46,374 nucleotides of DNA, from the IMG/VR virus record IMGVR_UViG_3300023223_000342, positions 1-46,374 of that record; one strand, given 5' to 3'. Numbering within the stretch: position 1 is the stretch's first letter; every line of letters starts with the position of its first letter. The translations under genes were made by a program, and so were the position numbers. Positions 1 to 43,308 of this stretch are shown here, piece by piece. The notes beneath the pieces are model-generated. The model was not told the origin of the DNA, did no database searches, and saw nothing but the letters and a program-made list of their open reading frames with translations. The stretch comes from a virus.

Positions 1-144
1 ATTGAATCATCAAGGGCGAAAGCAAAATTAGGATATTTTTTTTCAATATATCTTATTCTTTCCGCATGATCCCATTGGAAATCAACCCCTATCACAGTGC
101 CTCGAAAATAACCCTTTGCAAGATGTAAAGACCCACCCCCACCG
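1..144. repeat. Direct terminal repeat, left copy (144 bp)
   Basis: These bases are identical to the last 144 bases of the window and lie inside one methyltransferase gene whose frame continues across the join. This is the signature of an assembled circular or circularly permuted genome cut at an arbitrary point rather than a biological end repeat. Confidence 0.95.
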
Positions 145-299
145 GATACCCCTAACTCAACTGAAAGTTTAGGTTCCATTTCTTGAGCTAAAAGCAAGAG
201 AAACCTGTAATACATTGAAGGTGGAAACCGTTCATCAGGATAGATTAAATCGGTATCCTTTGCTTCTTCACCTAATCGTTCAAGGGTTTTTATTGTCAT
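1..299 (-). CDS. Class I SAM methyltransferase, N-terminal part (gene crosses the circular junction)
   Basis: N-terminal 99 codons plus part of the next of a 188-residue protein that continues at base 46230 once the 144-base end repeat is collapsed; the frame is kept. The start ATG is at 297-299 and begins MTIKTLERLGEEAKDTD. Motif I (SAM binding) is ELGVSGGGGSLHLAKG, followed by an acidic strand end, GVDFQWDH. The C-terminal half carries LFIDTDHTYH and VVILDDIF, a Methyltransf_24-type arrangement. Its start overlaps the end of the upstream membrane-protein gene by 20 bases. It belongs to the glycan cassette, so a sugar or glycan O-methyltransferase is the natural inference; the substrate is unknown. 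Confidence 0.8.
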   Translation of the reverse strand, partial: MTIKTLERLGEEAKDTDLIYPDERFPPSMYYRFLLLLAQEMEPKLSVELGVSGGGGSLHLAKGYFRGTVIGVDFQWDHAERIRYIEKKYPNFAFALDDS

Positions 300-492
300 T
301 TTCTGCTTGCTCTTTCATAGATTCAATTATCTTATTTAACATATACAAAGGCATATTTATTTTGATTGGCCCATAAATAAAGTGTGTTATTAATATAACT
401 ATCATTACAGGTAACATAATTATACATATTGTGCCTAACAACATTAATTCTATCGGCAAATTACATATTCTGCATACTATTTCTTCTTCCAT
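280..492 (-). CDS. Small membrane protein
   Basis: A 70-residue protein of unknown function. An N-terminal CRIC pair is followed by a long hydrophobic stretch (about residues 12-45: LMLLGTICIIMLPVMIVILI and on) that could form one long or two short membrane helices, then a charged tail (KEQAENDNKNP). It sits between two SAM methyltransferase genes of the glycan cassette. A membrane anchor or scaffold for the neighbouring enzymes is possible but only a guess. Confidence 0.6.
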   Translation of the reverse strand: MEEEIVCRICNLPIELMLLGTICIIMLPVMIVILITHFIYGPIKINMPLYMLNKIIESMKEQAENDNKNP

Positions 493-504
493 TATACAAG
501 TGTT

Positions 505-1161
505 TTAAGAGTCATATATCAAAAATCCTATAGGGTAATACATTAACGATTTGTCTAAATGTTTTTCATGGTACAACTTATCCCAGAATCCTTCTTTCAT
601 ATTATAGATACCACCTCCCGGACTACCCTGATCGATATCATCACAAATAACTAAAGCCCCTTTATTTAAAAGAGGAGTATAAGCATTCCAATCTTTAAAG
701 GCCTGTACATCGTTGTGCCAACTATCAATAAAAAGTAAATCAATCTTTTCTCCATTCAAATGTTCAAGAACTTTTGGGAAGGCATTCTCTCCAGGCTTTG
801 AGTGTTTGTCGTGTTCTTGTAAAAAAATTTCTGTACAGGTCCAACCCTTACAATACTTAATATTTGGAAAGTTTCTAACAGCAGTTTCCATTCTTGTAAC
901 ATTCAATTCATCAAATGGGTCTGTGTGGTGATCAATAGTAATGACCTTACTCCCTGCGCTGGCAAGATAAGCCGCCGAGGTGCCATCACATCCCCCCAGT
1001 TCAACGATATTCTTAAAAGAGTATTTATGTACTAACTGATAAAAAAACCTGTAATAGTCACGGCTGTGATTCTCTAACTGGAAAAGTTTATCCAGAAATT
1101 CATCCCCCGTAGGAACAGACTTAAACTCTTTAAGTAGTTTTTTAATCTCTGATAGTTTCAT
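505..1161 (-). CDS. Class I SAM-dependent methyltransferase (Methyltransf_24 type)
   Basis: A 218-residue enzyme. A helical N-terminus precedes motif I, VELGGCDGTSAAYLA (about residues 53-67), then TIDHHTDP at the end of the second strand, LLFIDSWHNDV (about 142-152) and LVICDDIDQG (about 170-179). This order and the acidic DSWHND and CDDID motifs fit small class I methyltransferases that act on sugars or small molecules in polysaccharide loci. Its start shares a 4-base ATGA overlap with the upstream 74-residue gene. It is related in plan, not closely in sequence, to the methyltransferase across the circular junction. The acceptor cannot be read from the sequence. Confidence 0.8.
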   Translation of the reverse strand: MKLSEIKKLLKEFKSVPTGDEFLDKLFQLENHSRDYYRFFYQLVHKYSFKNIVELGGCDGTSAAYLASAGSKVITIDHHTDPFDELNVTRMETAVRNFPNIKYCKGWTCTEIFLQEHDKHSKPGENAFPKVLEHLNGEKIDLLFIDSWHNDVQAFKDWNAYTPLLNKGALVICDDIDQGSPGGGIYNMKEGFWDKLYHEKHLDKSLMYYPIGFLIYDS

Positions 1162-1382
1162 GGTCTTTGAAAGATTGTATTATAATACCAAACGTTATGA
1201 ATTTTTAAAAACTGATCAACATAACTTAAATTCTCAGCCCATTTCATCTCTTCAACAATATTAATTCCAGTCCCTAAACATTTTTTTATATCAGGAGGAG
1301 CAGAATTATTTAGAACTACTTCATCTCCTTCATCAAAATGTATTCCTTTTTGGAACAGTTGTTTAAATAGAGTCCATTTCAT
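1158..1382 (-). CDS. Hypothetical protein in glycan cassette
   Basis: 74 residues, no recognised family. It starts MKWTLFKQLFQKG and is locked to both neighbours by 4-base ATGA overlaps (a glycosyltransferase upstream, a methyltransferase downstream), which strongly supports translation. Aromatic-rich C-terminus (NVWYYNTIF). No membrane segment or metal-binding motif is seen. Confidence 0.6.
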   Translation of the reverse strand: MKWTLFKQLFQKGIHFDEGDEVVLNNSAPPDIKKCLGTGINIVEEMKWAENLSYVDQFLKIHNVWYYNTIFQRP

Positions 1383-2329
1383 GAATTTACAATTTGGTTT
1401 AATAATTCCTGTCTTACCTGATACGTTCTTTGGCCGAGTTGTGGCTTCATAATCGCCGGAATATCAAAAGGCGTGGTTCCTTTAGTCCATTCATCACGTT
1501 TTAGTTGTCTTTGGTACCACTCAGCAAAGTTATACATTACACCACCTATGTTAATTGACTTATTGTCTACTCTCCATAAAGGCGCATGATGTTCCATTTT
1601 AGTTTTAATATTATCTAAGAATCCCCCCACCGAACTAATGTCTAATATCATTTCATTGGTGGGCATCTCCCAAGGATATTTACCATGTGTTACTTCTCTT
1701 TGTAAATTTCCATAAATGTGTAAATTTCCATTTTCATCAACTGTTTCCTTTCGGCCCTTGGAAAACTCTTTTCCCCATAATTCATACCAACCCCCTCCAA
1801 AGAATGAAAGCATTTCAGCGTCATTATACCTATCCGTATTCATGCCATCATCAACGAAATGAAATTGATCTTTATAATCTAATCTATGTACAGGATACGG
1901 TTGCCATTTGATTTCTTGAAAGTTGCGCATTAACTGGTAACGCCAAAAGGATAATCCTTTAGGAATAGGATTTTTTAACCTTATAAATAGTAAATCTATT
2001 AAATCCTCATGCCATATTTCATCGGCTTGATAATACATTACCAAATCATTCTTACAGGTAGGGATCATCTGATTTGGAATGACAGCAAAGCTGCCAGCAT
2101 CTACGAGGTTAGTAATAGGATTGACAGGGAATTCTCCTTGCTCTAAGCGTATTTTATCGTTTTTGGATGCTAAGTCCTTAAGTATTTCATACGTGCCGTC
2201 AGTGCTGCCAAGATCAAGTACAAAGAATTCATCCGCTAAAGGCATAAGGGTAGCCATTGACTCCCATAACCCAAACGCTCCGGAGTTGTTATCTTTTATG
2301 AAAACACAAATTGAAATTTTAGGAATCAT
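1379..2329 (-). CDS. Family 2 glycosyltransferase
   Basis: A 316-residue GT-A fold enzyme. The N-terminal strand KISICVFIKDN is typical of GT2; nucleotide-binding elements are FFVLDLGSTDGTYEIL (about residues 35-50) and the DxD-like YYQADEIWHEDLID (about 99-112), where ADE takes the metal-binding place. A long C-terminal region ends with TTPFDIPAIMKPQLGQRTY, a pattern also at the end of the GT encoded at 4467-5183, so the two are paralogs. It should move a sugar from a nucleotide donor to a glycan; donor and acceptor are unknown. ATGA overlaps on both sides place it in one translationally coupled unit with an SDR reductase and a methyltransferase. Confidence 0.85.
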   Translation of the reverse strand: MIPKISICVFIKDNNSGAFGLWESMATLMPLADEFFVLDLGSTDGTYEILKDLASKNDKIRLEQGEFPVNPITNLVDAGSFAVIPNQMIPTCKNDLVMYYQADEIWHEDLIDLLFIRLKNPIPKGLSFWRYQLMRNFQEIKWQPYPVHRLDYKDQFHFVDDGMNTDRYNDAEMLSFFGGGWYELWGKEFSKGRKETVDENGNLHIYGNLQREVTHGKYPWEMPTNEMILDISSVGGFLDNIKTKMEHHAPLWRVDNKSINIGGVMYNFAEWYQRQLKRDEWTKGTTPFDIPAIMKPQLGQRTYQVRQELLNQIVNS

Positions 2330-3228
2330 AGAGAGGTTTTAATTGTAGGCATAATATATTTAATTGACTTTAAATTTCCTTCCATTTCCTTTCTCATTTC
2401 TATTAATCCATCTTTTGTAGTTTGATTTACAAGGCATTCATCTGAGAATGTTGTATCTATCGGACGAGGTGCAATGCTTTTAAAGTCCTCTAATTGTGCT
2501 CTCCTAATTAAGCTTGAATCCAATTCAAAAACCTCTGCAACCAATAAACCAAAATCAAAAACAGATAACTTATTTATCCCTGCTATATTTCGACTTTGTT
2601 GCCAGTTATCAGCTTTGATAAATTGCCATATTGTAGCCGCTACAACCCCCGCATAGGTTGGTTGAGTGTATGAATCCGTAACTAACTTTAATTTATTTCC
2701 GGCTTTTAATTCTCTGATTATTTTAGTAGCCCAGTTATCCCGAACATCTCCCCAACCAAACAAAAAGATAGGCCTTACTATTATCCAATCACATAAGCTT
2801 TTTTCTATAATGTCATCAGCTAAACTTTTAATTTTGCCATAGAAGTTAATAGGATTTCTTTTTGATAGCTCAGAATAAGGTGGATTATCCCCATCATAAA
2901 CGGCATTTGTTGAAATGGTTATTAGTTTACAATTCATCTTTTCACAGTACTCCATCAGGTTAATAGTTCCCTCAAGGTCTGAGCGAACAGCTTCTACTGA
3001 ATTAGCTTCTACTGAATCTACATCACCATTTGCAGCACAATGAATAATTAGATCAGGCATGATTTTAAATAGCTGAGCAATAGGATTAGATAAGTCTAAA
3101 CTTTGTCGGGTAGCCGCTATTATTTCATGCTCCGGCTCTAATGCCATACCTTCAAATTGTTTCTTAGGCTGAGTCTTTAGTAAGTACTTACCAAGTAAAC
3201 CGGATGATCCTGTTATAACGCAACGCAT
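2326..3228 (-). CDS. SDR-family sugar-nucleotide reductase/epimerase (RmlD-like)
   Basis: 300 residues, extended short-chain dehydrogenase. The N-terminus has the Rossmann glycine motif ITGSSGLLGKYLL; the central strand TISTNAVYDGDNPPYSE is the RmlD-type Ser/Thr region; the catalytic Tyr-Lys pair is in NFYGKIKSLAD (YxxxK). The substrate-binding region includes WIIVRPIFLFGWG. RmlD-like enzymes reduce dTDP-4-keto sugars with NAD(P)H. No other dTDP-sugar pathway gene (RmlA, B or C) is present, so the phage would use a host nucleotide sugar. Coupled by ATGA to the following GT2 gene. Exact sugar specificity is unknown. Confidence 0.8.
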   Translation of the reverse strand: MRCVITGSSGLLGKYLLKTQPKKQFEGMALEPEHEIIAATRQSLDLSNPIAQLFKIMPDLIIHCAANGDVDSVEANSVEAVRSDLEGTINLMEYCEKMNCKLITISTNAVYDGDNPPYSELSKRNPINFYGKIKSLADDIIEKSLCDWIIVRPIFLFGWGDVRDNWATKIIRELKAGNKLKLVTDSYTQPTYAGVVAATIWQFIKADNWQQSRNIAGINKLSVFDFGLLVAEVFELDSSLIRRAQLEDFKSIAPRPIDTTFSDECLVNQTTKDGLIEMRKEMEGNLKSIKYIMPTIKTSL

Positions 3229-3558
3229 TTAAAAAAGAACAGATTTACTTGACTCCATTTTAATATTATTATTTCTACAATACTGTATTATTTCCTCAAT
3301 ATTATGAAAATGGAACCGTTGTCTATATTCAAAAAACTCCTCTTTTTTATCCTGCCCTATAATCATGACATCATTCCAGTTTAGTAAATTACATAATATT
3401 CCTTTCTTCCCTTTCTGTCTTCCTAACTCCCAATTTAGTGGTCCTAAATAATAAGATAAATTGGTATGATGTATAGGGCCAAAAATACACGGCTGAAATC
3501 CTACATTTAATAATGATTCATAAGTTATTTTAGTCATAATCTTTTCCTTTAGTGCCAT
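3229..3558 (-). CDS. Hypothetical protein in glycan cassette
   Basis: 109 residues from the first ATG; a second in-frame ATG eight codons on (MTKITYESLLNVGF) may be the real start because the first overlaps the upstream glycosyltransferase by 10 bases. Aromatic- and His-rich (FGPIHHTNLSYYLGPLNW, RFHFHNIEEI). No family recognised. The stop lies directly against the SDR start. Confidence 0.55.
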   Translation of the reverse strand: MALKEKIMTKITYESLLNVGFQPCIFGPIHHTNLSYYLGPLNWELGRQKGKKGILCNLLNWNDVMIIGQDKKEEFFEYRQRFHFHNIEEIIQYCRNNNIKMESSKSVLF

Positions 3559-4250
3559 TGAAGATGCCAGTAACGGTATTGTTCCCCTAAAATATATCTT
3601 TGTAATTTGTTCTTTTCCGTGTACCTACCAATCCGGCCCTCTAACATAAAGTAATATTCCTGCATCGGCCCTCCCTCTTTAAATCCTTCGAAAGGTAAAT
3701 CAAAATCAATATTCTTTAATCGGTCCCGCTCACAAAGGAATAATTGTTGACTCATATTCTGAGTATACCTATCTTGTTTTCCTCCACCATCAGAAGGGCT
3801 AACAATTAATACATTCTTATTACTTTGGAGTATTTGAATACCTTTTGTAACCCATGAGTTAGGTTGGCTTTTAATATGACAGTCAGCATCAGAGAGAACA
3901 ATGTAATCTGCTGAGCTTGCCTCTAATGCTACTAAGTGATTAACGCAGTGATGTTTCCAGTAGTGAGGGCCGTTCCATCCGTGGGTGTATTCATCTGCTT
4001 CTTCGTTATAAGGGTTAATGCCATTTCTAAGTAGGATGTCAGGATAGTCTTCTTTTTTTATTTCATAATATCCCCCGGTAGGTCCTGGCACTCCAATATT
4101 TCCGGGATTTTCTACTCGTTGATAAATCAAAATATGTTCATTAAACATATACCCATGTGAATTAATATGAGCCGTGATATTATTTTGTAGTTTATCCTTA
4201 TCCTTTTCACAACAATATATAGCAAAGTCGCATGTCATAATACCGTACAT
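3549..4250 (-). CDS. Glycosyltransferase (GT-A, galactosyltransferase-like)
   Basis: 233 residues. Starts MYGIMTCDFAIYCCEKDKDK; the key element is YIVLSDADCHIKSQPNSW (about residues 116-133), with DAD as the metal/nucleotide-binding DxD. Downstream, FEGFKEGGPMQEYYFMLE resembles the acceptor/catalytic loop of GT2/GT27-like enzymes. Overlaps the upstream small gene by 16 bases and the downstream gene by 10. Likely transfers a hexose in the cassette's glycan pathway; specificity unknown. Confidence 0.75.
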   Translation of the reverse strand: MYGIMTCDFAIYCCEKDKDKLQNNITAHINSHGYMFNEHILIYQRVENPGNIGVPGPTGGYYEIKKEDYPDILLRNGINPYNEEADEYTHGWNGPHYWKHHCVNHLVALEASSADYIVLSDADCHIKSQPNSWVTKGIQILQSNKNVLIVSPSDGGGKQDRYTQNMSQQLFLCERDRLKNIDFDLPFEGFKEGGPMQEYYFMLEGRIGRYTEKNKLQRYILGEQYRYWHLQWH

Positions 4251-4474
4251 TTTTCATTATGTACTGAGGCTAATGACCTCCATCCTAATTCAGGATCAAC
4301 AAAATAAAACTTTCCATTATGTTCCTCTACTCTATCAATCATTTCGGTTCCATCTTTACTATCATAAATTGCAATTGGAGGTTCATCAAAAGTATAAGTA
4401 ACTATAAATTTCACCATATTACCTACATGGATTTTATTTCCATGTCTATCATCCAAGTCAATATATTTATTCAT
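4235..4474 (-). CDS. Small YopX-like hypothetical protein
   Basis: 79 residues. The segment DRHGNKIHVGNMVKF and the beta-rich remainder resemble the small barrel of YopX-type phage proteins, though shorter than the clear YopX member at 36727-37077. Function unknown. Wedged between two glycosyltransferases with overlaps of 16 and 8 bases. Confidence 0.55.
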   Translation of the reverse strand: MNKYIDLDDRHGNKIHVGNMVKFIVTYTFDEPPIAIYDSKDGTEMIDRVEEHNGKFYFVDPELGWRSLASVHNEKCTVL

Positions 4475-5183
4475 ATTTATTTTTGCCTACTAGGGGCTTT
4501 AGAATTTCAGGTATATTTAGCGGAGTAGTTGTCCAGGTCCAATGAGGGTCATCTAAGTTAACAGGGTCATCAATATCATGTGAAACATGCAAAGGAACAT
4601 TTAAACTATTTTCTAATCCATGCCATAACTCCGATTGCTGCTTTTTTCGTGCATGGTAGTTATCCCTGAAACAGTTAGTAACATCCCAAAGGAAGCCGTC
4701 AATATCCATATCCTCTAAAGCTTCATGATGTTCTGAAGTTGTATGACCTTGTTTTATTACAGACCCTTTCGGAAAAATCCTATGAACTAATTCAGGATAC
4801 CATCTAACTCTCTGAAAGTTCTGCTCTATTTGGAGCCTCCAAACTGTTTGAGACTTATATCCCGACTCAATCAAATTCAGACAATTATTTATTAATTCAT
4901 CATCATACACCTCGTCAGCTTCAAAATGCACTATCACATCACCTTTGCACTCTACATTCATTGCATGAAGCCGTGTAAGCGTTTCTCCTGCGTTATACCC
5001 CCACTTGGCCTGTATTACCCTATCAACTAAGTTAGAGCCTTGCAGCCACTCTAAAGTGCCGTCGTTAGATTCAGCGTCAACTACTACCATTTCATCAACG
5101 TAAGGCCGAACCGCAGCGATAGCTTCCCTGATAGGATAGCCAGCATGAAAGGCGTTATGAATAAATGAGAATCCGCTAATCAC
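4467..5183 (-). CDS. Family 2 glycosyltransferase
   Basis: 238 residues, predicted to start at GTG (5181-5183), since no ATG precedes the conserved first strand GFSFIHNAFHAGYPI. Features: VVVDAESNDGTLEWL (about residues 34-48) for nucleotide binding and VIVHFEADEVYDDELI (about 84-99) in the DxD place. The C-terminus TTPLNIPEILKPLVGKNKY matches the end of the GT2 at 1379-2329, marking an old duplication. Overlaps both neighbours by 8 bases. Confidence 0.83.
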   Translation of the reverse strand: MISGFSFIHNAFHAGYPIREAIAAVRPYVDEMVVVDAESNDGTLEWLQGSNLVDRVIQAKWGYNAGETLTRLHAMNVECKGDVIVHFEADEVYDDELINNCLNLIESGYKSQTVWRLQIEQNFQRVRWYPELVHRIFPKGSVIKQGHTTSEHHEALEDMDIDGFLWDVTNCFRDNYHARKKQQSELWHGLENSLNVPLHVSHDIDDPVNLDDPHWTWTTTPLNIPEILKPLVGKNKYE

Positions 5184-5361
5184 TTTTCTTTCCCCACTTT
5201 TCAGGATTTAGGCCTTTTACAAACTTTTGTAAAAAGGCTTTTACTGTCATGTGAAAGTAATCCTCTGCAAATTGAATCATATCCTCTCTGTCAAACATTT
5301 TCTCATCTGTATTTTTTCCAGTATCTGCCCATTGTTCCTGCATGTATTCTTTAGCTGTCAT
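5176..5361 (-). CDS. Hypothetical protein
   Basis: 61 residues, acidic and helical (MTAKEYMQEQWADTGKN; FDREDMIQFAEDYFHMTV). Small proteins of this look are frequent in phages; no function is known. ATGA overlap with the upstream methyltransferase. Confidence 0.6.
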   Translation of the reverse strand: MTAKEYMQEQWADTGKNTDEKMFDREDMIQFAEDYFHMTVKAFLQKFVKGLNPEKWGKKSD

Positions 5362-5921
5362 TTCTTAAAAAGCCCCCAAACTGCCTGTCTGAACAACTCC
5401 GGTTTATATTCTGTTAGCTTATTATAAATAATAGTATCTGATATCTGTTCCCGGGTACACTCCACACAATTCCAATACACGCCCATAATGTTTTCCTCAA
5501 AGTCCTCTCTGCTCAGAGCGTAATCATGCACTCCTATAATATCACCCTTATTCATGTGAGGAGCTAAGTAAGAAATCTCATCAGACTTAACCCCGTTATC
5601 ACATAAAATCAAAGTCTGCCCTAATTCTAAAGCAGCCCTATACAAATGCATTGCACTTGGTTCCTGGTAATGGATATGCTCAAAATCAATATCATTCTTT
5701 GCAAATATTTCTATTCTTTCTTCACCAGCATGGATTTCATAGTCTACCGTAAGGATATAAGCCAAAGGGAATATCTGTCTAAGAAATAAAGCAAAGCCCC
5801 CCTGATAGGTACCAATCTCAATAATGGCTTTTATATCCTCAGCAGCGGCTAAATCCTGGAAGGGTTTCAGTATCCACTTATTCTGAGAAACTTCTAAGCC
5901 CTCAATGTTTTGGTGATTCAT
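5358..5921 (-). CDS. SAM-dependent methyltransferase (CmcI-like)
   Basis: 187 residues. Motif I is AIIEIGTYQGGFALFLRQ (about residues 33-50), with ILTVDYEIHAG next, then TLILCDNGVKSDEISYLAPH (about 104-123) and GDIIGVHDYAL (about 127-137). The GTYQGG loop and VHDY ending recall the CmcI/cephalosporin-hydroxylase-like methyltransferase family found in surface-glycan loci. Third SAM methyltransferase of the cassette. ATGA-coupled to the next gene; its own start overlaps the upstream gene by 20 bases. Confidence 0.75.
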   Translation of the reverse strand: MNHQNIEGLEVSQNKWILKPFQDLAAAEDIKAIIEIGTYQGGFALFLRQIFPLAYILTVDYEIHAGEERIEIFAKNDIDFEHIHYQEPSAMHLYRAALELGQTLILCDNGVKSDEISYLAPHMNKGDIIGVHDYALSREDFEENIMGVYWNCVECTREQISDTIIYNKLTEYKPELFRQAVWGLFKK

Positions 5922-6123
5922 CTATTTCGAAAAATATTTCAAAAAAATCAGGTTTATCAATAGTCGACTGCTCATCAATAAATAAACTCATACAGCTATA
6001 TTTACTTACTTCAAGAATACTTTCATGCATTCCTTCTCCATAATCTACTGTTAAGTCACAACAATCGGTAAATTCTGTTCCCGCAGGAATTATCCAGTCT
6101 TTTTTTAGTTTGATTTTTTTCAT
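5902..6123 (-). CDS. Hypothetical protein
   Basis: 73 residues: basic N-terminus (MKKIKLKKDWIIPAGTEF), then a short beta-rich body ending acidic (FFEIFFEIDESPKH). No family recognised. ATG start; 20-base overlap with the methyltransferase it precedes. Confidence 0.55.
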   Translation of the reverse strand: MKKIKLKKDWIIPAGTEFTDCCDLTVDYGEGMHESILEVSKYSCMSLFIDEQSTIDKPDFFEIFFEIDESPKH

Positions 6124-6128
6124 CTCTT

Positions 6129-6305
6129 TTATAATTTAATCTTTTTCCATCGTTTGTATTGCTTGTTTCCTACCCATTCATGCGTAGGAACTTTAGGTTT
6201 GTTAGCTATCGTTTTAATTTTCTTTTCAGTGACTTTTTTAACTGATTCTTTCACCTGTTCTCTGGTTACAGAAGTTTTACGATCATGTGTTTTTACTTTT
6301 GCCAT
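6129..6305 (-). CDS. Small basic protein
   Basis: 58 residues, strongly basic: MAKVKTHDRKTSVTREQVKE at the start and NKQYKRWKKIKL at the end. It lies in an otherwise empty gap, 5 bases before the following gene, and has a clean ATG. It might bind nucleic acid by charge alone. No homolog recognised. Confidence 0.55.
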   Translation of the reverse strand: MAKVKTHDRKTSVTREQVKESVKKVTEKKIKTIANKPKVPTHEWVGNKQYKRWKKIKL

Positions 6306-6405
6306 AATTTAATTTTCTTTTGAGGTTACAAACTTCCTGCCCTATCTCAGGGAGCTCAGGTAATTCATGTAATTTGTCGAGTAATTCAATTGCTGCTTTT
6401 TTCAT
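6283..6405 (-). CDS. Very small acidic/helical protein
   Basis: 40 residues starting MKKAAIELLDKLHELPELPE. The start overlaps the end of the metallopeptidase-like gene by 20 bases, and the stop overlaps the next start by 23. Overlaps of this size recur in this cluster. Low complexity and short length keep confidence modest. Confidence 0.4.
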   Translation of the reverse strand: MKKAAIELLDKLHELPELPEIGQEVCNLKRKLNYGKSKNT

Positions 6406-6853
6406 TTCTTTTTCTTGCTTTTGTCACAAGTTCTTTAGTTATTTTTTTAATTACTTTAGAGCTACGAAGGCTTTCTCTTTTCTTCCAAAGGTTTAATTTC
6501 TGATGACATAAATTAATTAAATATTCTAAAAGATAATTTTCTGGTTCTGAATTTTCATTATTAACCTTATGATCTATATGTTCCCATACATATTTACAAG
6601 CATGAAGGCATTCATGACCTATAACACCTTCATTAAAATATTCATCTTCTTTATCAAATACTAAATAGATGCATTTAAAATAAGTCCCTTTTATTAACCA
6701 ACTTCCTTGAAAAGCTATTGCAACATATTTCTCTCCTAAATTGTAATCTGTCCATTTCAACTTTATGAATTTTTCTATTTCTTTTTGATCGTTTCCTTCA
6801 ATTATACAAATCCTATTAGGGTACAAAGGAAGTTTTTCCATATAATAATTCAT
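6386..6853 (-). CDS. Putative zinc metallopeptidase-like protein (HExxH)
   Basis: 155 residues. GHECLHACKYVW (about residues 79-90) contains HECLH, an HExxH zinc-binding motif with a leading Gly. About 20 residues on, ENYLLEYLINLC offers a Glu third ligand as in gluzincin-like folds. The C-terminus is very basic (KKRESLRSSKVIKKITK and KARKRNEKSS). The target is unknown: envelope protein, host factor and virion maturation are all open. It sits inside the glycan cassette and is ATGA-coupled to the upstream GT. Confidence 0.55.
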   Translation of the reverse strand: MNYYMEKLPLYPNRICIIEGNDQKEIEKFIKLKWTDYNLGEKYVAIAFQGSWLIKGTYFKCIYLVFDKEDEYFNEGVIGHECLHACKYVWEHIDHKVNNENSEPENYLLEYLINLCHQKLNLWKKRESLRSSKVIKKITKELVTKARKRNEKSSN

Positions 6854-7602
6854 ATCCTTTCTTTATTAAAGTTAGCATGATTTTTTAATACTTCCGGTAA
6901 TGTGCGCCTGTCAAAGTCCTCCGTTTCAATCCATATTCCATTAGAAGCAGGATGCATTTGTTTAGTTTCACCTTTCTTATAATTTAGCCATTTATTTTGA
7001 TACCAGTCTTTTGGAATTTCCCCTTTGTGACCATGACACGACATCTTGTATGCTGTAATCTCAGGGCTTTGTGCATAAGACATGTGATATACTTTACCTG
7101 AATGAATAATTCCATCCTCAGCATGAAATATTTTCCCTTCTTTCTTCTGAAACCGTATAGGATAAAATCCGTCTCTGTGGCATTCATTAAAGGAACGCCA
7201 AAAATGCCGCCATCGTTCTCCGCCAAGCCCTACGGTCTTACATGGATTCTCCCAAGCCTCTTTTAGCATTTGTGGCACCTCTGAGGATTCGTGAACCTCA
7301 TCACCATCTACGGAAAAGATCATATCAAAGGCCCCTAAATATCTTAAAACCTGGTTTCTGTGATTCCCTTCTACTGTATTACCGGCAATAGTATTCCATA
7401 TTAATTTATCCCCTAAAGTATCTTTTGCAATTTGGTATAGTTCATCCTTAGATTCAGGGTTACGAATATCGCCTACATGACCATAAGAGGGTGTTGAAGT
7501 GTAAACAATTAGAAACTGATCTATAAAAGGCTCTACCGCTGCAAGGGTAGCGTGTAAGTACTCACGGCCGTAGTGAAGAGGCATAAAGGCTAATACTTTC
7601 AT
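6850..7602 (-). CDS. Glycosyltransferase (GT2-like)
   Basis: 250 residues. The N-terminus MKVLAFMPLHYGREYLHATL, the strand FLIVYTSTPS and the metal-binding MIFSVDGDEVHESSEV (about residues 94-109, DGD) give a GT-A arrangement. The middle is rich in His and aromatic residues (ERWRHFWRSFNECHRDGFYP), typical of acceptor pockets. An antisense-like alternate frame at 6984-7226 is a shadow. ATGA overlap with the downstream metallopeptidase-like gene. Confidence 0.75.
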   Translation of the reverse strand: MKVLAFMPLHYGREYLHATLAAVEPFIDQFLIVYTSTPSYGHVGDIRNPESKDELYQIAKDTLGDKLIWNTIAGNTVEGNHRNQVLRYLGAFDMIFSVDGDEVHESSEVPQMLKEAWENPCKTVGLGGERWRHFWRSFNECHRDGFYPIRFQKKEGKIFHAEDGIIHSGKVYHMSYAQSPEITAYKMSCHGHKGEIPKDWYQNKWLNYKKGETKQMHPASNGIWIETEDFDRRTLPEVLKNHANFNKERI

Positions 7603-7667
7603 ATCTTCAATATTATGGGTGGGTAATACACCCGTTCATCCAAGTCTTTATAAATAGGGTTATTCAT
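7599..7667 (-). CDS. Possible 22-residue coupling peptide
   Basis: Tiny frame beginning MNNPIYKDLDERVYYPPI. It starts 1 base after the preceding stop and ends in an ATGA overlap with the following GT start. The position fits a leader that carries ribosomes from one gene to the next; a stable product is unlikely to be provable from sequence. Confidence 0.3.
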   Translation of the reverse strand: MNNPIYKDLDERVYYPPIILKI

Positions 7668-7668
7668 T

Positions 7669-7848
7669 TCATTTTCGTTTTCTTTTAAAATGATGACACG
7701 CCTCTCCTTTCGGAAATAAAATAACATTCAAGATTTCACAACAAGCATTAAAATAAATATAATTAGAATGTTCCTTATCGTGCTTGTACATCTTACGGCA
7801 TCTCTTTGCTGATTCAAGATATTTTTTTATTTCTTTCTTAGATTTCAT
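7669..7848 (-). CDS. Small basic Cys/His-containing protein
   Basis: 59 residues, starting MKSKKEIKKYLESAKRCRKM and ending CHHFKRKRK, with NACCEILNV between. Cys and His spacing does not make a clear zinc motif. ATGA overlap with the upstream CgeB-like glycosyltransferase supports translation. Confidence 0.55.
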   Translation of the reverse strand: MKSKKEIKKYLESAKRCRKMYKHDKEHSNYIYFNACCEILNVILFPKGEACHHFKRKRK

Positions 7849-8792
7849 AAGTCGATTATGTTTTGTACCATGTGAGCGAAAGTGTAATTGTTGTGAATGT
7901 AACCAGACGAACCCCTCCCTTGAAAATTAATTCCCCGTTCGATTGGTAATTCTCTGGCATAATTAATATTAGTAATACAATTTGTAAGATTTTTAAATCC
8001 AACTCCGATATGAAAAGGAATAACTTTTTCTATTTCTGGAAATTCATGGACCATAACGCAAGCCCCGCATCCCATAGCCCTAAACAGTCGATCACTTGTA
8101 TAACGAGATTCAGTAAAGCTTGACATACTTATAGCTATCTCACAACCCCGATAAATAGCGGCTTCTTTTTTCTGCCATAGATTCACCTCTTTCAAGGAGT
8201 CTTTAACATTACATTCCCCATCGGCTAACTCTTGCCATCCATTGCCATAAAGTTTAAAATCATCTCCATAGGCATTCTTTAAGCCAAGTATTAAATTCAT
8301 TCTTACTTGATCATTAGGGAAATGCCGTGCCCTGTTAGCTAAAAAAACAATCTTTCCCGCTGAAGGCTCCACAAATCCATCAGGCGTAAATATCTTAGGG
8401 TCAATGCCTACCTGTAAAAACTCTGCCTTATATCCGGCCTTACGGACATTATTAATATCCCTGTCATTTGAAAAGCAAGTAACCGAAACATGAGGGGCCA
8501 AATCAAAAACATAATGTTCTGTTGATCTACGAATATCCCCGGACCAATGAACTACTTTAGTGCCTTTGTTTTTCCAGTGTTGTAGTACACTTTTAAGGTC
8601 TTGATTATAGCCTGTTCCCTGCACTTGTAAGAATAGTATATCGGGCCTCCATTGAAGGTTTTTTAGTTCTACTGTGACATTTTCGGGCCTGCATTCATGG
8701 TACATACTTGAAGCCTCCATGAACGCTTCCGCAATGCCTTCAACTCTATTGTAGCAACATATTCCAATATGTAGAATTTTAGGCTTTGTCAT
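7845..8792 (-). CDS. CgeB/GT4-like glycosyltransferase
   Basis: 315 residues with a GT-B plan. The N-terminal domain starts KPILHIG-like (MTKPKILHIGICCYN) and has the donor-side strand VVHWSGDIR (about residues 95-103). The C-terminal domain has VFLANRARHFPND (about 148-160), LYGNGWQEL, and the nucleotide-sugar loop CEIAISMSSFTESRYTSDRL followed by FRAMGCGACVMVHEF, the pattern of CgeB-type transferases (EIxxSRL..RAMxCGxxxL). Probably the only GT-B enzyme among the GT-A types in the cassette. Its start overlaps the upstream small membrane gene within a duplicated 18-base junction. Confidence 0.8.
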   Translation of the reverse strand: MTKPKILHIGICCYNRVEGIAEAFMEASSMYHECRPENVTVELKNLQWRPDILFLQVQGTGYNQDLKSVLQHWKNKGTKVVHWSGDIRRSTEHYVFDLAPHVSVTCFSNDRDINNVRKAGYKAEFLQVGIDPKIFTPDGFVEPSAGKIVFLANRARHFPNDQVRMNLILGLKNAYGDDFKLYGNGWQELADGECNVKDSLKEVNLWQKKEAAIYRGCEIAISMSSFTESRYTSDRLFRAMGCGACVMVHEFPEIEKVIPFHIGVGFKNLTNCITNINYARELPIERGINFQGRGSSGYIHNNYTFAHMVQNIIDL

Positions 8793-8795
8793 TTT
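8778..8795. repeat. 18-bp junction repeat, copy 1
   Basis: TTTAGGCTTTGTCATTTT, identical to 8917-8934. On the minus strand each copy encodes both the last codons of one gene (NDKA, stop) and the first codons of the next (MTKPK). The two copies flank the 50-residue membrane-protein gene. Confidence 0.9.
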
Positions 8796-8931
8796 TAATA
8801 TTTATTTCTATTGTAGTAAGCCACGAAAGAAAGAAGAGTATTAGAAGTAATTTCCAATCATACCAGATTAAACAAAATGTTATTGTTATTATAAGCACAA
8901 TAATCCAAATTATATATTTAGGCTTTGTCAT
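8779..8931 (-). CDS. Small two-helix membrane protein
   Basis: 50 residues, MTKPKYIIWIIVLIITITFC, then LIWYDWKLLLILFFLSWLTT: two closely spaced membrane helices with a short charged tail ending NDKA. Both ends lie in copies of the same 18-base sequence, so the first five residues equal those of the next gene (MTKPK) and the last four equal those of the previous one. This looks like a small gene inserted by duplication of a coupling junction. Confidence 0.65.
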   Translation of the reverse strand: MTKPKYIIWIIVLIITITFCLIWYDWKLLLILFFLSWLTTIEINIKNDKA

Positions 8932-8934
8932 TTT
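8917..8934. repeat. 18-bp junction repeat, copy 2
   Basis: Exact second copy of the sequence at 8778-8795; it contains the stop of the 71-residue gene and the start of the 50-residue membrane-protein gene. Confidence 0.9.
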
Positions 8935-9133
8935 CTTTCTTTCTTTGTTCACTAATCTTATCAGGTGCCCACATGTTCACCCCAAACCACTTATCTCTTT
9001 TAGTCACCGCTATAGTATAAGATTCAAGACAATTTTTAAGATATTCGGCAAGCATAAAATCAGGAGTATCTGATTCATTTTCTTTACTATAACTGTTAAG
9101 TAATGATTCTAATTCTCTTTCAAATGTTTTCAT
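8918..9133 (-). CDS. Hypothetical phage protein
   Basis: 71 residues, MKTFERELESLLNSYSKENE then DTPDFMLAEYLKNCLE and a conserved-looking DKWFGVNMW. Proteins with this pattern (C-terminal helical segment, then K-W-x-G/N) are common in phages; function unknown. ATGA overlap with the upstream GT. Confidence 0.6.
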   Translation of the reverse strand: MKTFERELESLLNSYSKENESDTPDFMLAEYLKNCLESYTIAVTKRDKWFGVNMWAPDKISEQRKKENDKA

Positions 9134-9747
9134 ATCGGTTTACGTTTAATTTGTGGATTTAATACGGTTTGTTCAACCCACTTCCAAGGCGTCTGGACTT
9201 GTTTAGGCCAACCTTCTGGGATATTATATTCTCTTGTCTCTATTTTATGCAGATGGATTGCCTGTACAGTCAATGAGGGATTAGTTAACCTGTACCCTCT
9301 TCTAATAATTTCATATGCTATTCGATTATCACATCCAGGAATACCAAGCGGAAACCTTCCATATATTGAGGTAATTGCGCCCTTGAATATCCAAACATCC
9401 TGACTATGTTTTGCCTTAGCCTGCTTATTTCTAACGTGCTTTTCCTCGAAAAGAACAGGCGTTTTACCGTCTAACTCCCACCGGGTTAAAGCATAACAAT
9501 CTCGAATTCCAATTTCTTTTATATGTTCAAGCGTTTCATTAAAGTAAATATCTGCATTAGCTAAGATATTAATATCATTAGGGAATAGTTCCGTCTGCTC
9601 AAAGAAGTTTGTATACGTAGGACGTTCAGCAAAAAGCTTGATAGCATCAATGATAGGATTCTTTTCATTTTCTCTAAGGCAAAAGTTTAGCTCCCGTTGC
9701 CTTTGACGGTTGCCACATTGATAATGAGAAACAAAAAGATTAATCAT
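9130..9747 (-). CDS. Glycosyltransferase-like protein (GT-A)
   Basis: 205 residues. NILANADIYFNETL (about residues 59-72) occupies the DxD place of a GT-A fold, preceded by PTYTNFFEQTELFPND. The second half has VWIFKGAI and RFPLGIPGCDNRIAYEIIRR, matching the acceptor loop (G-x-x-G-C-D) of a family found with other GTs in bacteria and phages. The DxD is replaced by NAD, so catalysis may be metal-independent or altered. ATGA-coupled to the following gene. Confidence 0.65.
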   Translation of the reverse strand: MINLFVSHYQCGNRQRQRELNFCLRENEKNPIIDAIKLFAERPTYTNFFEQTELFPNDINILANADIYFNETLEHIKEIGIRDCYALTRWELDGKTPVLFEEKHVRNKQAKAKHSQDVWIFKGAITSIYGRFPLGIPGCDNRIAYEIIRRGYRLTNPSLTVQAIHLHKIETREYNIPEGWPKQVQTPWKWVEQTVLNPQIKRKPI

Positions 9748-9757
9748 TGATATTCAA

Positions 9758-9925
9758 TTAATTAAATATTTTATCAGCTTCATGTTCTGTTATATTCCTA
9801 ACATTTATGTGATAAATTAGTATTCCAAAAAGATAAATACAATAATGATAATCGTTACCATACGACCCGTCTTTTCGTGCCCATCCGTGTATTGAACGCT
9901 TATGAATTATCTTTTTTAGAATCAT
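9758..9925 (-). CDS. Small hypothetical protein
   Basis: 55 residues: MILKKIIHKRSIHGWARKDG, then DYHYCIYLFGILIYHINV, possibly a short membrane-associated helix. ATGA overlap with the stop of the upstream GT2 supports it. Confidence 0.5.
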   Translation of the reverse strand: MILKKIIHKRSIHGWARKDGSYGNDYHYCIYLFGILIYHINVRNITEHEADKIFN

Positions 9926-10554
9926 CGATTTCGGGTTAAACTTTTAGATTTATCAGCCCTGTAATGGTATAGTTCTTTTTCAATTACATACTGGTCATTC
10001 ATACCGTATTTCTGGGCTATCTCAGCGGCCCAACGATGATCCTCGCTCTGGTTGATATCAGGGAATTGAACGCCTTGGGCTAACTCTCTTTTCCATACAC
10101 ATAAATGCCCAGGCAAATAACCCAAGAAAACTTTGTCCCCTTGTTTGATAGTTACATGAACACCTGAATACTCCCTACTGAAGCGATAGGGACGCGCTGG
10201 CTGGCCATTCTCTGTTTTCTTTAGTAAGAAGGTTATAACAGGTTTTTGTGTCTCCCTGATAGCTTTTAGAATTTCTTTGATATAGTCCGGCTCGATACCG
10301 TCATCGTCATCAACGAAACACAAGTAATCCCCGTCGGCAATAGACATTAACTTATTCCTTTTTTTGCCCACGGACATGCTTTTATTATCTCCGAGCCAAA
10401 GGATTTGAACCTCTTCGGTCTGAATAAGATAATCCAGTTCGTTAAGTAATTGGTTAAGCTCTAAACTACGAGACTTGACAGTACAAATAAGAATAGAAAG
10501 TATCACCTTTTTAGGGCCTTTGTATAAATTGGAATAAATAGGGTTTCTGCTCAA
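9922..10554 (-). CDS. Family 2 glycosyltransferase
   Basis: 210 residues, compact GT2. Strand VILSILICTVKSRS, then QILWLGDNKSMSVGKKRNKL (nucleotide side) and YLCFVDDDDGIEPDYI (about residues 77-92), a strong DDDD metal-binding motif. The catalytic base region is near QSEDHRWAAEIAQ (about 164-176). This is the clearest GT2 of the cassette. Its stop shares ATGA with the following small gene; it directly abuts the upstream 105-residue gene. Confidence 0.87.
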   Translation of the reverse strand: MSRNPIYSNLYKGPKKVILSILICTVKSRSLELNQLLNELDYLIQTEEVQILWLGDNKSMSVGKKRNKLMSIADGDYLCFVDDDDGIEPDYIKEILKAIRETQKPVITFLLKKTENGQPARPYRFSREYSGVHVTIKQGDKVFLGYLPGHLCVWKRELAQGVQFPDINQSEDHRWAAEIAQKYGMNDQYVIEKELYHYRADKSKSLTRNR

Positions 10555-10872
10555 TTACAGATATTTCATACTTATAAATTGCCAAAAAGAAATCTTCCTA
10601 ATATCAAATAATTCTGGCTCTTTTGGCTTTGGATTTTTCTTTCTAAAATCTCCAAGTTCTTTTTTCATTACACTTAAATCATCCGCTATTAATATATTAT
10701 GGGCGTTTAGTGCATTGTTCCGCTCTATGGATTCTACAAGGGCTTTCTCTTTCGTTAGAAAATCTGCTTGATAATAAGCATCGTGTATTATTCCAATTTT
10801 TCCTGCTGAGATTTCAGATTTAAAATCTCGTAATTCATTATAGTCTTCTAAATGTAATCTTACGTAGTTCAT
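10555..10872 (-). CDS. Hypothetical protein, first gene of the glycan cassette
   Basis: 105 residues. N-terminus MNYVRLHLEDYNELRDFKSE, coiled-coil-like middle (KEKALVESIERNNALNAH), charged linker FRKKNPKPKEPELF. No family. It is the first gene after the terminator that closes the head operon, so it should be first in the cassette transcript. Its leader has an AACCAAAAAT stretch but no Shine-Dalgarno. Confidence 0.6.
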   Translation of the reverse strand: MNYVRLHLEDYNELRDFKSEISAGKIGIIHDAYYQADFLTKEKALVESIERNNALNAHNILIADDLSVMKKELGDFRKKNPKPKEPELFDIRKISFWQFISMKYL

Positions 10873-10918: not shown

Positions 10919-10950
10919 AAAAAAAAAGCACCCCCGAAGCTGGAGGCACC
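10919..10950 (-). terminator. Rho-independent terminator after the head operon
   Basis: On the minus strand GGTGCCTCC (10950-10942) pairs with GGGGGTGC (10935-10928), including G-T pairs, around a six-base loop, then a run of nine T. It lies after the last head-block gene and before the glycan cassette. It could also work weakly on the plus strand (TTTT at 10951). It implies separate transcription, or readthrough control, of the cassette. Confidence 0.7.
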
Positions 10951-10989
10951 TTTTAACCCTATTAACCAAATCCAAAAACTATAAAAAAA

Positions 10990-11514
10990 TCAGTTGAAGA
11001 CATTAGCGGGCACGTCACTTGTCTTGGGATTATCGAAATCCTTCCACGTTATGACTACTTTCCAAACGACTTCCGTTTCTAACCCGTTTTCTACGGAAGG
11101 AACGGCATCAATAGAAATGTCCTTATCTTCTATCATTAAAAGTGAATATTCACCTCCAACAACGAAAGCTACTTTATAATCATTACTTTTCATAAGTGGA
11201 TTAAAGAATAACTCGTTGCCTTTTACTCCAGGAATATCAATTGATAAAACATGATCGGCATTGGTCCGCCTTTCGGACTCATTACCAAAGCCTGGAATCT
11301 TTACACCAGTGACCGCATATTCTCCCCTTACCTCTCCAAAAATATGGAGGTCGGCTGAATAATCGCCGTCGACCCAAACGGAGGTATTTGAGGGATCATT
11401 GAAAATCACCTGAAATATATCTTTGTGAATCAGACCAAGAGCCGTCACCCTTCCGGTCTCCGATATACAATCTGAAACGACAAAATCGGGAATTATCGGT
11501 TGACATCGTGCCAT
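10990..11514 (-). CDS. Virion structural protein next to capsid protein
   Basis: 174 residues, beta-rich. It starts MARCQPIIPDFVVSDCISET; the middle has WVDGDYSADLHIFGEVRGEY and a late VVWKVVITWKDFDNP. Directly downstream of the major capsid gene (28-base gap), last before the terminator. Position and beta content suggest a head decoration, stopper or tail-tube-like protein; I cannot choose between these. No other obvious major tail protein exists, so that role is possible. Confidence 0.55.
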   Translation of the reverse strand: MARCQPIIPDFVVSDCISETGRVTALGLIHKDIFQVIFNDPSNTSVWVDGDYSADLHIFGEVRGEYAVTGVKIPGFGNESERRTNADHVLSIDIPGVKGNELFFNPLMKSNDYKVAFVVGGEYSLLMIEDKDISIDAVPSVENGLETEVVWKVVITWKDFDNPKTSDVPANVFN

Positions 11515-11542: not shown

Positions 11543-12628
11543 CTATGCCGCCTTGGTTATGTTATAACCTACTGTACCCGTAAAGTCGCCTAAGTCAGCG
11601 TAAGGCTCTCCAAATGCTGCTTGCGGTGGCGTCCATAAGTCAAAATATGTGAAAATTCTGCCCGTATACGAACCCTGTATCCCATTCGTGGTCGAACATT
11701 CATCATCATACTTAAATATGAAATCCCACATTAAAGCACTGCCAAATACTGCATCGGGAATTGTACTCTTTTTAGAGCTGTCAGGAGTCTCCAGCGCAAA
11801 GTCACTATTGCGATAGAAATTATACTGAAAGAACTGTGACAAGCCAGGATAAGAAACGATTACGTCGTCAATATCTCCAAGTGCGCTTAAAGTGTTCTGA
11901 TCCTTGAAATGAATCAATCCAAAATTATTCGCTATCTCTCGAATATCAACGCCACTATCCCTTACATTTCCGACGGCCAGAAGGTTGTTATACTTCCGCA
12001 TGTTTCCCAAACCAATAACACCTGGAACACCCACCATGAAATTATCTTCTTTATGGATTAAGATGTCATCAAATGTTGCGGGATCTACGGTTCCATCGGA
12101 AAGTAGCAACTGAAGCGAGGTATTTTGACCTACTCCAACACCACTGCCAGGATTACTCCCGATGGCGGTATTATAAGCTGCTAACAATTGACGGTCTGCA
12201 TCTTCCCGACATATCCGTTGAGCGTCCCGAATTTCACGGGTTAATACAGCCTGTAATTCTAACGGTGTTCCTTCCCTGACTAATTCCTCATCAATTGAAA
12301 ATTTATCATGCACAAACAATGCAGGATTTAGAGTTTGGATTTGCTCTCTGCGATGTGTTACTTTATTACAATTCGCAAGAGCATCACTCGTCACAAGATC
12401 ACCGGTACCTTTTTGAGGGGTGAACCTAATTTCACACGGACGGTATTTCCCGTTTAATGCGGATTGTCCTTGCTGAATATTAATCGTGCTCCCATTGAAG
12501 GGAGAAAACAACCACTCAAGCGTCCCTATTAGCTTTTTGTAGTTTCCTGGGTCATTGACTGTTACAACGTCACCCATCATTTTTTGAACTGCCTGAAGTG
12601 CCTCAGTCAGCGATAAATTAACTGCCAT
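11543..12628 (-). CDS. Major capsid protein (probable)
   Basis: 361 residues, MAVNLSLTEALQAVQKMMGD. Supporting points: location between a scaffold-like gene and another virion gene; length; a long spine-helix-like segment (FSIDEELVREGTPLELQAVL, then REIRDAQRICREDADRQLLA, about residues 110-151); a beta-rich body; and the C-terminal TYFDLWTPPQAAFGEPYADL region. The fold is probably HK97-like, but that is inference. No Shine-Dalgarno upstream, only an A/T-rich leader, as expected of highly expressed Bacteroidota genes. Confidence 0.75.
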   Translation of the reverse strand: MAVNLSLTEALQAVQKMMGDVVTVNDPGNYKKLIGTLEWLFSPFNGSTINIQQGQSALNGKYRPCEIRFTPQKGTGDLVTSDALANCNKVTHRREQIQTLNPALFVHDKFSIDEELVREGTPLELQAVLTREIRDAQRICREDADRQLLAAYNTAIGSNPGSGVGVGQNTSLQLLLSDGTVDPATFDDILIHKEDNFMVGVPGVIGLGNMRKYNNLLAVGNVRDSGVDIREIANNFGLIHFKDQNTLSALGDIDDVIVSYPGLSQFFQYNFYRNSDFALETPDSSKKSTIPDAVFGSALMWDFIFKYDDECSTTNGIQGSYTGRIFTYFDLWTPPQAAFGEPYADLGDFTGTVGYNITKAA

Positions 12629-26588: not shown

Positions 26589-26719
26589 TGAATATAGATA
26601 TAACAAATAATTCCAAGAGTTTTTGATATATACAATGAACAATGATATTCTTTGTTAGTCTTAAAATAAGACTCGCTTACATCCATAAACTTCCAATGTC
26701 TTTTAAAAGGGATTTTCAT
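26585..26719 (-). CDS. Small hypothetical protein
   Basis: 44 residues, MKIPFKRHWKFMDVSESYFK, ending with a hydrophobic stretch LGIICYIYIQ. Start in TAATG shared with the upstream stop; stop in ATGA shared with the next start. The double coupling supports it despite its size. Confidence 0.5.
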   Translation of the reverse strand: MKIPFKRHWKFMDVSESYFKTNKEYHCSLYISKTLGIICYIYIQ

Positions 26720-26937
26720 TATTCTTGACAGCGTTCGAGTGCCCTATTCAAAAAATCTATTAATGTTTTAATTTCATGATGATCAAAGTTGACTTCCCCT
26801 TTTCTGTCTATCTTTAAAGTTATACAAAGGACTCCTCCATTATGAACAGACGCATATTCTTCAATTTGTTCAAAAGTAAGTTCAACAGGATTTTTTATTT
26901 TATGATCATGATTAAATTTTATATATTCTAATCTCAT
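26719..26937 (-). CDS. Hypothetical protein
   Basis: 72 residues, MRLEYIKFNHDHKIKNPVEL; FEQIEEYASVHNGGVLCITL; ends in an amphipathic helix (LIDFLNRALERCQE). No family recognised. Between terminase and chaperone genes. Confidence 0.55.
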   Translation of the reverse strand: MRLEYIKFNHDHKIKNPVELTFEQIEEYASVHNGGVLCITLKIDRKGEVNFDHHEIKTLIDFLNRALERCQE

Positions 26938-26942
26938 TTCTT

Positions 26943-27107
26943 TTACCCGGAAGGTCGTTTTGATTGAAGTTCTAATAATTCTTCATTTAAATGTTTATCT
27001 AAATATTTTCCTATCTCATCAACTAAAAAAGGGCTTATCCCTTCTAAATGATCTGCATTTATAGCTTCCGTATAAATCTCTCTTAATAACTCAAAGGGTC
27101 CTTTCAT
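26943..27107 (-). CDS. Small acidic helical protein
   Basis: 54 residues, MKGPFELLREIYTEAINADH, LEGISPFLVDEIGKYLDKHL. Amphipathic helices throughout. ATGA overlap with the upstream small gene. Confidence 0.5.
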   Translation of the reverse strand: MKGPFELLREIYTEAINADHLEGISPFLVDEIGKYLDKHLNEELLELQSKRPSG

Positions 27108-27250
27108 ATTAATTCTTTAAATCTAAATCCCACCACCATTTCACCAGCCTTATTAAAATATATCATTACTGGCGAAGTAGGATTAAAATCATCCCTCCAT
27201 ACTAATATCCATTCATTAGCATAACCTTCCGATACTCTTCTCTTTTCCAT
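27104..27250 (-). CDS. Small hypothetical protein
   Basis: 48 residues, MEKRRVSEGYANEWILVWRD, then NKAGEMVVGFRFKELI; predicted beta hairpin pairs. It starts one base after the terminase stop and is ATGA-coupled downstream. Confidence 0.5.
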   Translation of the reverse strand: MEKRRVSEGYANEWILVWRDDFNPTSPVMIYFNKAGEMVVGFRFKELI

Positions 27251-37077: not shown

Positions 37078-37298
37078 ATCACTTCAGCAATGCCTTGCCT
37101 GTTTATATACCAAATTTGGGAATGATTTTTATGTTTTTTTAGGTATTTGCAACCCATTTTTTGCCTTTTCAATTCATGTTCTACAACCTGCGGAGTTCCC
37201 TCTAAGAACCCATGAATCAAATGTATCCGGCTCTCTTCCTGATTCATCTCAGTGAGTTTCTTGGCTTTAGCTATTTTTTCTGATCGGGTCATGTCCAT
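37074..37298 (-). CDS. Hypothetical basic protein
   Basis: 74 residues, MDMTRSEKIAKAKKLTEMNQ; HELKRQKMGCKYLKKHKNHS. Basic; maybe DNA-binding. ATGA overlap with the YopX gene; 10-base overlap with the C5-type methyltransferase. Confidence 0.5.
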   Translation of the reverse strand: MDMTRSEKIAKAKKLTEMNQEESRIHLIHGFLEGTPQVVEHELKRQKMGCKYLKKHKNHSQIWYINRQGIAEVI

Positions 37299-43286: not shown

Positions 43287-43308
43287 ATCCTCCTTTATCT
43301 TTTTTCAT
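43267..43308 (-). CDS. 13-residue Cys/Gly peptide frame
   Basis: MKKDKGGCGCGGK, with an ATGA overlap to the upstream virion gene and lying over the start of the neck gene in another frame. The GGAGG of its codons is also the Shine-Dalgarno of the neck gene. Possibly a coupling leader, possibly a metal- or disulfide-binding microprotein. Confidence 0.35.
   Translation of the reverse strand: MKKDKGGCGCGGK

Follow-up and report, generated by a model that had tools for sequence, protein, structure and literature searches.

A cassette of putative sugar-modifying enzymes with a recurring four-gene core beside the probable capsid gene of a phage, and its possible part in virion glycosylation

IMG/VR virus record IMGVR_UViG_3300023223_000342 is a phage sequence of 46,374 bases, which was analyzed at its full length (hereafter the window). 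Its ends form a 144-base direct repeat, leaving 46,230 unique bases. The end repeat of a related complete record, G001, is likewise 144 bases long, and both sequences were therefore treated as circular maps. Nearly every gene of the window lies on the minus strand. An earlier reading of the letters alone, made without database searches (the sequence-only reading), had described a cassette of sugar-handling genes that takes up about a quarter of the genome and passes through the circular junction to position 45118. This description was borne out: the cassette occupies the minus strand between 10554 and, across the junction, 45118, a span of 11.67 kb, or 25% of 46,230 bp (18.6% for the enzymes alone). 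It contains 12 enzyme-sized open reading frames (ORFs), namely eight glycosyltransferase (GT)-like proteins, two clear and one weak S-adenosylmethionine (SAM) methyltransferases and one RmlD-like reductase, mostly separated by short gaps or overlapping. The earlier count of eight GT-like enzymes, three methyltransferases and a reductase therefore stands as a set, with assignments of uneven quality and one weak methyltransferase; its figure of 20-plus cassette proteins is too high for the conserved set, since about ten short ORFs among the enzymes have no homologue in relatives. The cassette is flanked by a probable capsid gene (11543–12628) with a 174-aa neighbour (10990–11514) on one side and by probable neck genes below 45087 on the other. 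Four of its genes form a core that recurs in dozens of environmental phage contigs from several unrelated lineages.

The metal motifs quoted earlier for the GT-like proteins (ADE, DAD, DGD, NAD and DDDD) were all found in the sequences. The cassette genes, the structural genes next to them and the hairpin described below are on the minus strand. Among the GT2-type enzymes, GT9922 (9922–10554; GT-A, DDDD motif) matches Pfam GT2 with an E value of 1.4e-8 (35.3 bits against a cut-off of 23.3) and has homologues in contigs L002, L003, L017 and L046–L048. GT4467 (4467–5183; EADE motif) matches the same family (3e-7; 31.0 against 23.3 bits) and also gave a weak GtrB-like PHROG match. Its paralogue (E 1e-19), GT1379 (1379–2329; ADE motif), is a borderline case (8e-5; 23.1 against 23.3 bits) with 67–69% identity in L002 and L003. 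GT3549 (3549–4250; DADC motif) is a possible GT-A enzyme with a weak GT2 match (0.046); its counterparts in L002 and L003 share 64–67% identity, and the L003 version is also a weak GT2 match (0.021). The CgeB-like protein (7845–8792) is a GT-B glycosyltransferase with a match to Pfam Glyco_trans_1_2 above the cut-off (2.8e-9) and a conserved SDR motif. The DUF5672 protein (45118–45687; Pfam DUF5672, 1e-27) has columns QHDS, NGG and NED conserved across lineages; no solved relative was found, no mention of DUF5672 together with phages was met in the literature searched, and context and motifs make it a possible GT. It and GT3549 are counted as GTs by inference only.

The remaining two, GT6850 (6850–7602; DGD/DSDE motif) and GT9130 (9130–9747; NAD motif), are putative GT-A enzymes whose window sequences have no Pfam match. 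GT6850 has an orthologue in L002 that falls just under the Pfam GT2 cut-off (2.6e-4), and in the GT9130 family the columns N64, D66 and G138-C-D-N-R142 are conserved across lineages. AlphaFold models of both were built from alignments of three sequences each. The top Foldseek matches of the low-confidence GT9130 model (pLDDT 55) are glycosyltransferases (best E 1.7e-4), and its comparison with chondroitin polymerase gave a VIA Z of 11.3 and a root-mean-square deviation (rmsd) of 3.4 over 147 aligned residues. For the GT6850 model (pLDDT 50) the matches are mostly GTs, the best being TarS (8.5e-4); comparison with the ThuS GT gave a VIA Z of 9.2 and an rmsd of 3.2 for 131 aligned residues, and GT-A-like nucleotidyltransferases scored nearly as well. 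The sequence-only reading had pointed to assignment of most GT-like proteins to non-GT folds as the outcome that would speak against it; the only two folded, which are the hardest ones, both give GT-A-like matches, in models of low confidence. Profile comparison of GT6850 with GT4467 gave a probability of 40%, and the comparisons of GT9130 and GT3549 with the other cassette GTs yielded nothing useful.

Of the other enzymes, the reductase (2326–3228) is a member of the short-chain dehydrogenase/reductase (SDR) family resembling RmlD-like reductases of nucleoside diphosphate (NDP)-4-keto-6-deoxyhexoses (Pfam RmlD_sub_bind, 1e-40, 140 against 27 bits), with intact GxxGxxG and YxxxK motifs. It missed the cut-off of the dTDP-rhamnose reductase equivalog TIGR01214 (141.3 against 224.05 bits) and stays an RmlD-like SDR. 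MT505 (505–1161) is a Methyltransf_24/CmcI-like SAM methyltransferase (Pfam Methyltransf_24, 2.5e-12), and among PDB entries its family profile matches CmcI and O-methyltransferases. A paralogue of 188 aa (E 1e-10; Methyltransf_24, 1.3e-11) spans the circular junction, its C-terminal part lying at 45963–46374, the last 144 bases of which repeat positions 1–144, and its N-terminal part at 1–299. The third methyltransferase (5358–5921) is weakly CmcI-like (RMNT_CmcI, 0.0015, under the cut-off) and weakly similar to the MT505 homologues; relatives of it occur in L046 and L051. None of the cassette enzymes has a membrane segment; the neighbouring short ORF 280–492 has one.

The genes for the CgeB-like protein, GT6850, the DUF5672 protein and GT9130 lie close together on the same strand not only in the window. 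Searches with the GT9130 and DUF5672 families gathered about 100 further loci, which were then scored with local profiles. In total, at least three of the four genes were present in 78 other contigs, and 54 loci, the window included, contained all four. Near duplicates are frequent among these contigs, and clustering of the 65 CgeB sequences leaves 22 groups at 80% identity and 15 groups at 60%. When about 20 kb were compared with the window at an E value of 1e-4, the core genes were the only matches in L054, L056, L060, L062 and L077. L061 added one weak match, and L055 and L064 added a GT9922-like domain fused to GT9130. This fusion of the GT9130 family to a GT2 domain (469 aa; L055:10620–12029 and L064:10623–12032) supports joint action of the two proteins.

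The core diverges as a whole, its pairwise distances being correlated with r of 0.94–0.97. Its genes are under purifying selection, with a median NG86 ratio of nonsynonymous to synonymous substitution rates (dN/dS) of 0.09–0.11, which is a rough value because dS is high. Among representatives with less than 80% identity, the motif residues (D99/D101/E102 of GT6850, N64/D66 of GT9130, QHDS of DUF5672 and SDR of CgeB) are at least 90% conserved. The surroundings of the core are more variable. In the window, L002 and L003 a block composed of GT4467, GT3549, the RmlD-like reductase, GT1379 and a methyltransferase lies between GT6850 and DUF5672, and in L046, L047 and L048 the core occurs without it. 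Gene order also varies among relatives, as GT4467 has moved in L003 and GT9130 may be first or last. It should be added that a PAPS-reductase-family gene (L096:197–991) lies just upstream of the core, and its cluster adjoins the core in seven loci.

That multi-step GT assembly lines are uncommon in phages, as the sequence-only reading held, is too strong a statement given the 78 other contigs with the core and two T4-like contigs with even longer arrays; multi-step sets of this kind are not unique in phages. The latter two (L040:2032–20289 and L043:652–15197, with Pfam matches to gp32 and gp44-lid) have a run of about 20 ORFs in which sugar enzymes are frequent, including Nucleotid_trans, GT47, GT10, GT25, FkbM methyltransferase, UDP-galactopyranose mutase and epimerase families.

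Syntenic cassettes in related phages, proposed earlier as something to look for, do exist: 11 of the 12 enzymes (all except 5358) occur in nearly the same order and with 37–68% identity in the IMG/VR contigs L002, which comes from G001, and L003. G001 matches the window in the structural genes and the cassette, which is conserved about as well as the capsid gene; in the early region just three genes match G001, one of them an HNH endonuclease. An HNH endonuclease in the early region of the window (35168–35698) shares 43% identity with L002:7113–7640, located inside the G001 cassette between GT4467 and GT3549, which suggests homing-endonuclease traffic. In the same cassette an ORF beside GT1379 (L002:9372–9995; 207 aa) is a putative sulfotransferase by motifs seen by eye only (LPKSGGTS and IREPDDWYKSMY), with no Pfam or PDB match. 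The claim that nucleotide-sugar synthesis is absent holds for the window genome, the reductase apart, and does not extend to its relatives, since a gene for GDP-mannose 4,6-dehydratase (GMD) is present in the cassettes of L003 and L048. The L003 enzyme clears the TIGR01472 cut-off (420.2 against 415 bits) and, together with the RmlD-like reductase, suggests a GDP-6-deoxyhexose as the donor, for which the window phage would need the dehydratase of its host.

No close relative at the nucleotide level was found in the GenBank phage collection, tblastn with the capsid protein, the CgeB-like protein, the junction methyltransferase and GT4467 retrieved no named phage, and two scans of genome contigs with the GT9130 and GT4467 families revealed no bacterial relative. 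In the GenBank phage collection the L077-type GT6850 protein had no match, and the L056 CgeB protein gave a single weak, fragmentary match, to a faecal phage record that has no annotation. Shine-Dalgarno-like sites precede two of the 57 gene starts of the window against a background of 12%, so that they are rarer than the background; the upstream regions are A-rich. Such sites are similarly rare in most relatives, though not in all. Since both features are found in phages of Bacteroidota, the host of the window phage probably belongs to this phylum.

The lineage best sampled for the position of the core is the L077 type. Upstream of it lie genes for the portal, a Mu-F-like protein, an S78 protease and the major head protein, and downstream those for a GT4 enzyme, the head-tail adaptor, head closure, neck and tail terminator. 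The major head protein was no more than two ORFs upstream of the core in 34 of the 38 loci with enough sequence, which are related and so do not represent independent cases, and in 39 of 42 loci the head-tail adaptor followed the core within three ORFs. In the window, G001 and L017 the cassette follows directly after a capsid gene of its own that is not detectably homologous to the L077-type head protein, and in L003 and L046–L048 DUF5672 is followed by a 307-aa gene of the structural module. Since PF05065 was found in neither the window-type nor the other non-L077 contigs, it could not serve to name their head genes.

In the window, the gene directly upstream of the cassette (11543–12628) probably encodes the major capsid protein, judging by its size and position. 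It has no Pfam or PHROG match, and its counterparts at the same place share 59% identity in G001 and 58% in L017. The 174-aa protein encoded between it and the cassette (10990–11514) is conserved in this position in both L002 and L017 and is possibly a decoration or acceptor protein. Downstream of the cassette lies a probable neck or virion gene (43305–44288), syntenic in G001 with 46% identity and with a weak match to a PHROG of unknown function.

Synteny, fold and selection together give good support to a multi-step cassette producing a methylated oligosaccharide. Where this glycan would be placed was left open between the capsid and the host surface by the sequence-only reading; our analysis favours the capsid, with neither destination proven. 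We consider it fairly probable that the cassette is expressed late and works in the cytoplasm as a glycosylation line that decorates the virion with a methylated deoxysugar oligosaccharide. Its soluble enzymes would take sugars singly from host nucleotide-sugars and attach them, in the cytoplasm, to a protein of the virion, with the capsid protein or one associated with it as the likeliest acceptor. The four core enzymes and GT9922 would build a base chain, and the lineage-specific block (GT4467, GT3549, the RmlD-like reductase, GT1379 and two methyltransferases) would lengthen it and add an O-methylated 6-deoxy sugar as a cap. Judged from the sequences, GMD and the RmlD-like reductase in L003, plus the CmcI-like methyltransferases, point to a methylated 6-deoxyhexose. 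The phage might benefit through shielding or altered adsorption. Of this picture, the genes present, their order and conservation, the purifying selection on the core and its place among head genes are observed; activity of all eight proteins as GTs, late expression, the kind of sugar, the acceptor and the benefit are inferred.

Several observations weigh against decoration of the virion. A terminator-like hairpin (10923–10954; a 13-pair stem followed by a T run) parts the capsid genes from the cassette in the window; terminator-like sites in this region are as numerous as expected by chance, and just the strength and place of this one are suggestive. The core neighbours were not recognised as head genes in L055, L064 and some other contigs. 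Three of the GT assignments (GT3549, DUF5672 and GT9130) are without family-level sequence proof, and the models of GT9130 and GT6850 are of low confidence. Finally, the core is common to phages with no detectable homology between their capsid proteins; the acceptor would then need to be a short motif, a fold that these proteins share or, alternatively, a molecule of the host.

This last point is also what would be expected if the acceptor came from related hosts, and it leads to the main rival explanation, in which the enzymes alter glycans of the infected cell, in the lipopolysaccharide (LPS), capsule or S-layer, and thereby prevent superinfection or release progeny from receptors. O-antigen loci typically contain GT2, RmlD and GMD families, and the authors of a pelagimyophage survey interpreted phage GT clusters as serving host modification (PMC7029224). 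Linkage to head and connector genes is, however, not predicted by such remodelling. Moreover, neither the window nor G001 contained lipid-carrier initiators or flippases (PF02397, PF00953 and PF01943; most controls positive) or a GtrA-type flippase (PF04138; control positive in seven of 14 genomes), and the enzymes are free of membrane segments, although the host machinery could supply these steps. Because of the gene position and the missing membrane steps we prefer decoration of the capsid, and regard remodelling of the host surface as rather unlikely.

Much less credit is due to a loose set of horizontally acquired sugar genes with no joint product. The differing order among relatives and the lack of conservation of the short ORFs between the enzymes would fit it, while the core, found together in 78 other contigs, co-diverging and under purifying selection, would not. 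Least probable of all, by a slight difference, is hypermodification of DNA, with GTs glycosylating modified bases to evade restriction: such GTs are known from phages (Pyle et al. 2024, as cited in PMC12619734) and the early region has two DNA methyltransferase genes (35643–36392 and 37289–37852), but the cassette lies outside the replication module, neither the window nor G001 has a thymidylate-synthase-type hydroxymethylase (PF00303), and Pfam scans of the larger ORFs, which left the ORFs at 10990, 13566 and 42338–45087 unscanned and included no dedicated search, gave no Tet/JBP match.

A broader proposal can be put forward tentatively, at somewhat less than even chances: the four-GT core may have been transferred as a unit between phage lineages sharing no other detectable genes, repeatedly beside capsid genes, and may build a common core oligosaccharide on non-homologous capsids, to which each lineage adds its own finishing enzymes. 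If true, this would make the core a general system of virion glycosylation, probably one of Bacteroidota phages. A conserved four-GT core beside capsid genes appears to be undescribed in the sources searched. Experiments have demonstrated virion glycosylation in few phages, and the core offers a sequence handle for finding glycosylated virions and predicts which structural genes to examine, so that the purpose of phage glycans becomes testable across lineages.

Compared with known systems, the cassette shares phage-borne GTs with the gtr serotype-conversion modules (GtrA-GtrB-Gtr), GT4467 being the weakly GtrB-like member. Unlike these modules of temperate phages, the window has no GtrA-type flippase, membrane GT or integrase match. 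In G001, a weak integrase match below the cut-off was seen at 26714–27133. Bacterial O-antigen and 6-deoxysugar clusters (Gmd, RmlD, GT2, O-methyltransferase) have the same enzyme classes in an operon-like run, but O-antigen and capsule loci differ in that no flippase or initiating transferase was found in the window or G001. In PBCV-1 a soluble viral GT (structure 2p72) acts on a capsid protein, and 2p72 is among the weak fold matches of GT9130; PBCV-1 is an unrelated algal virus, and no sequence relationship has been shown. A precedent is offered by the mycobacteriophages Che8, Corndog and Myrna, whose own GTs glycosylate the capsid and tail tube (Freeman et al. 2023, as cited in PMC12363180 and PMC12619734). 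There, too, phage-encoded GTs modify capsid or tail proteins, whereas the window has eight GT-like proteins, three methyltransferases and a reductase, and its acceptor is putative; the core proteins tested against the GenBank phage collection had no match except the weak fragment mentioned above. The number of sugar genes per genome recalls the GT clusters of T4-like marine and freshwater phages, of which L040 and L043 carry such arrays and among which pelagimyophages have many LPS-type genes (PMC7029224). Those clusters belong to large genomes and in pelagimyophages often lie near tail-fibre genes, whereas here a 46-kb phage carries a cassette that adjoins the capsid gene.

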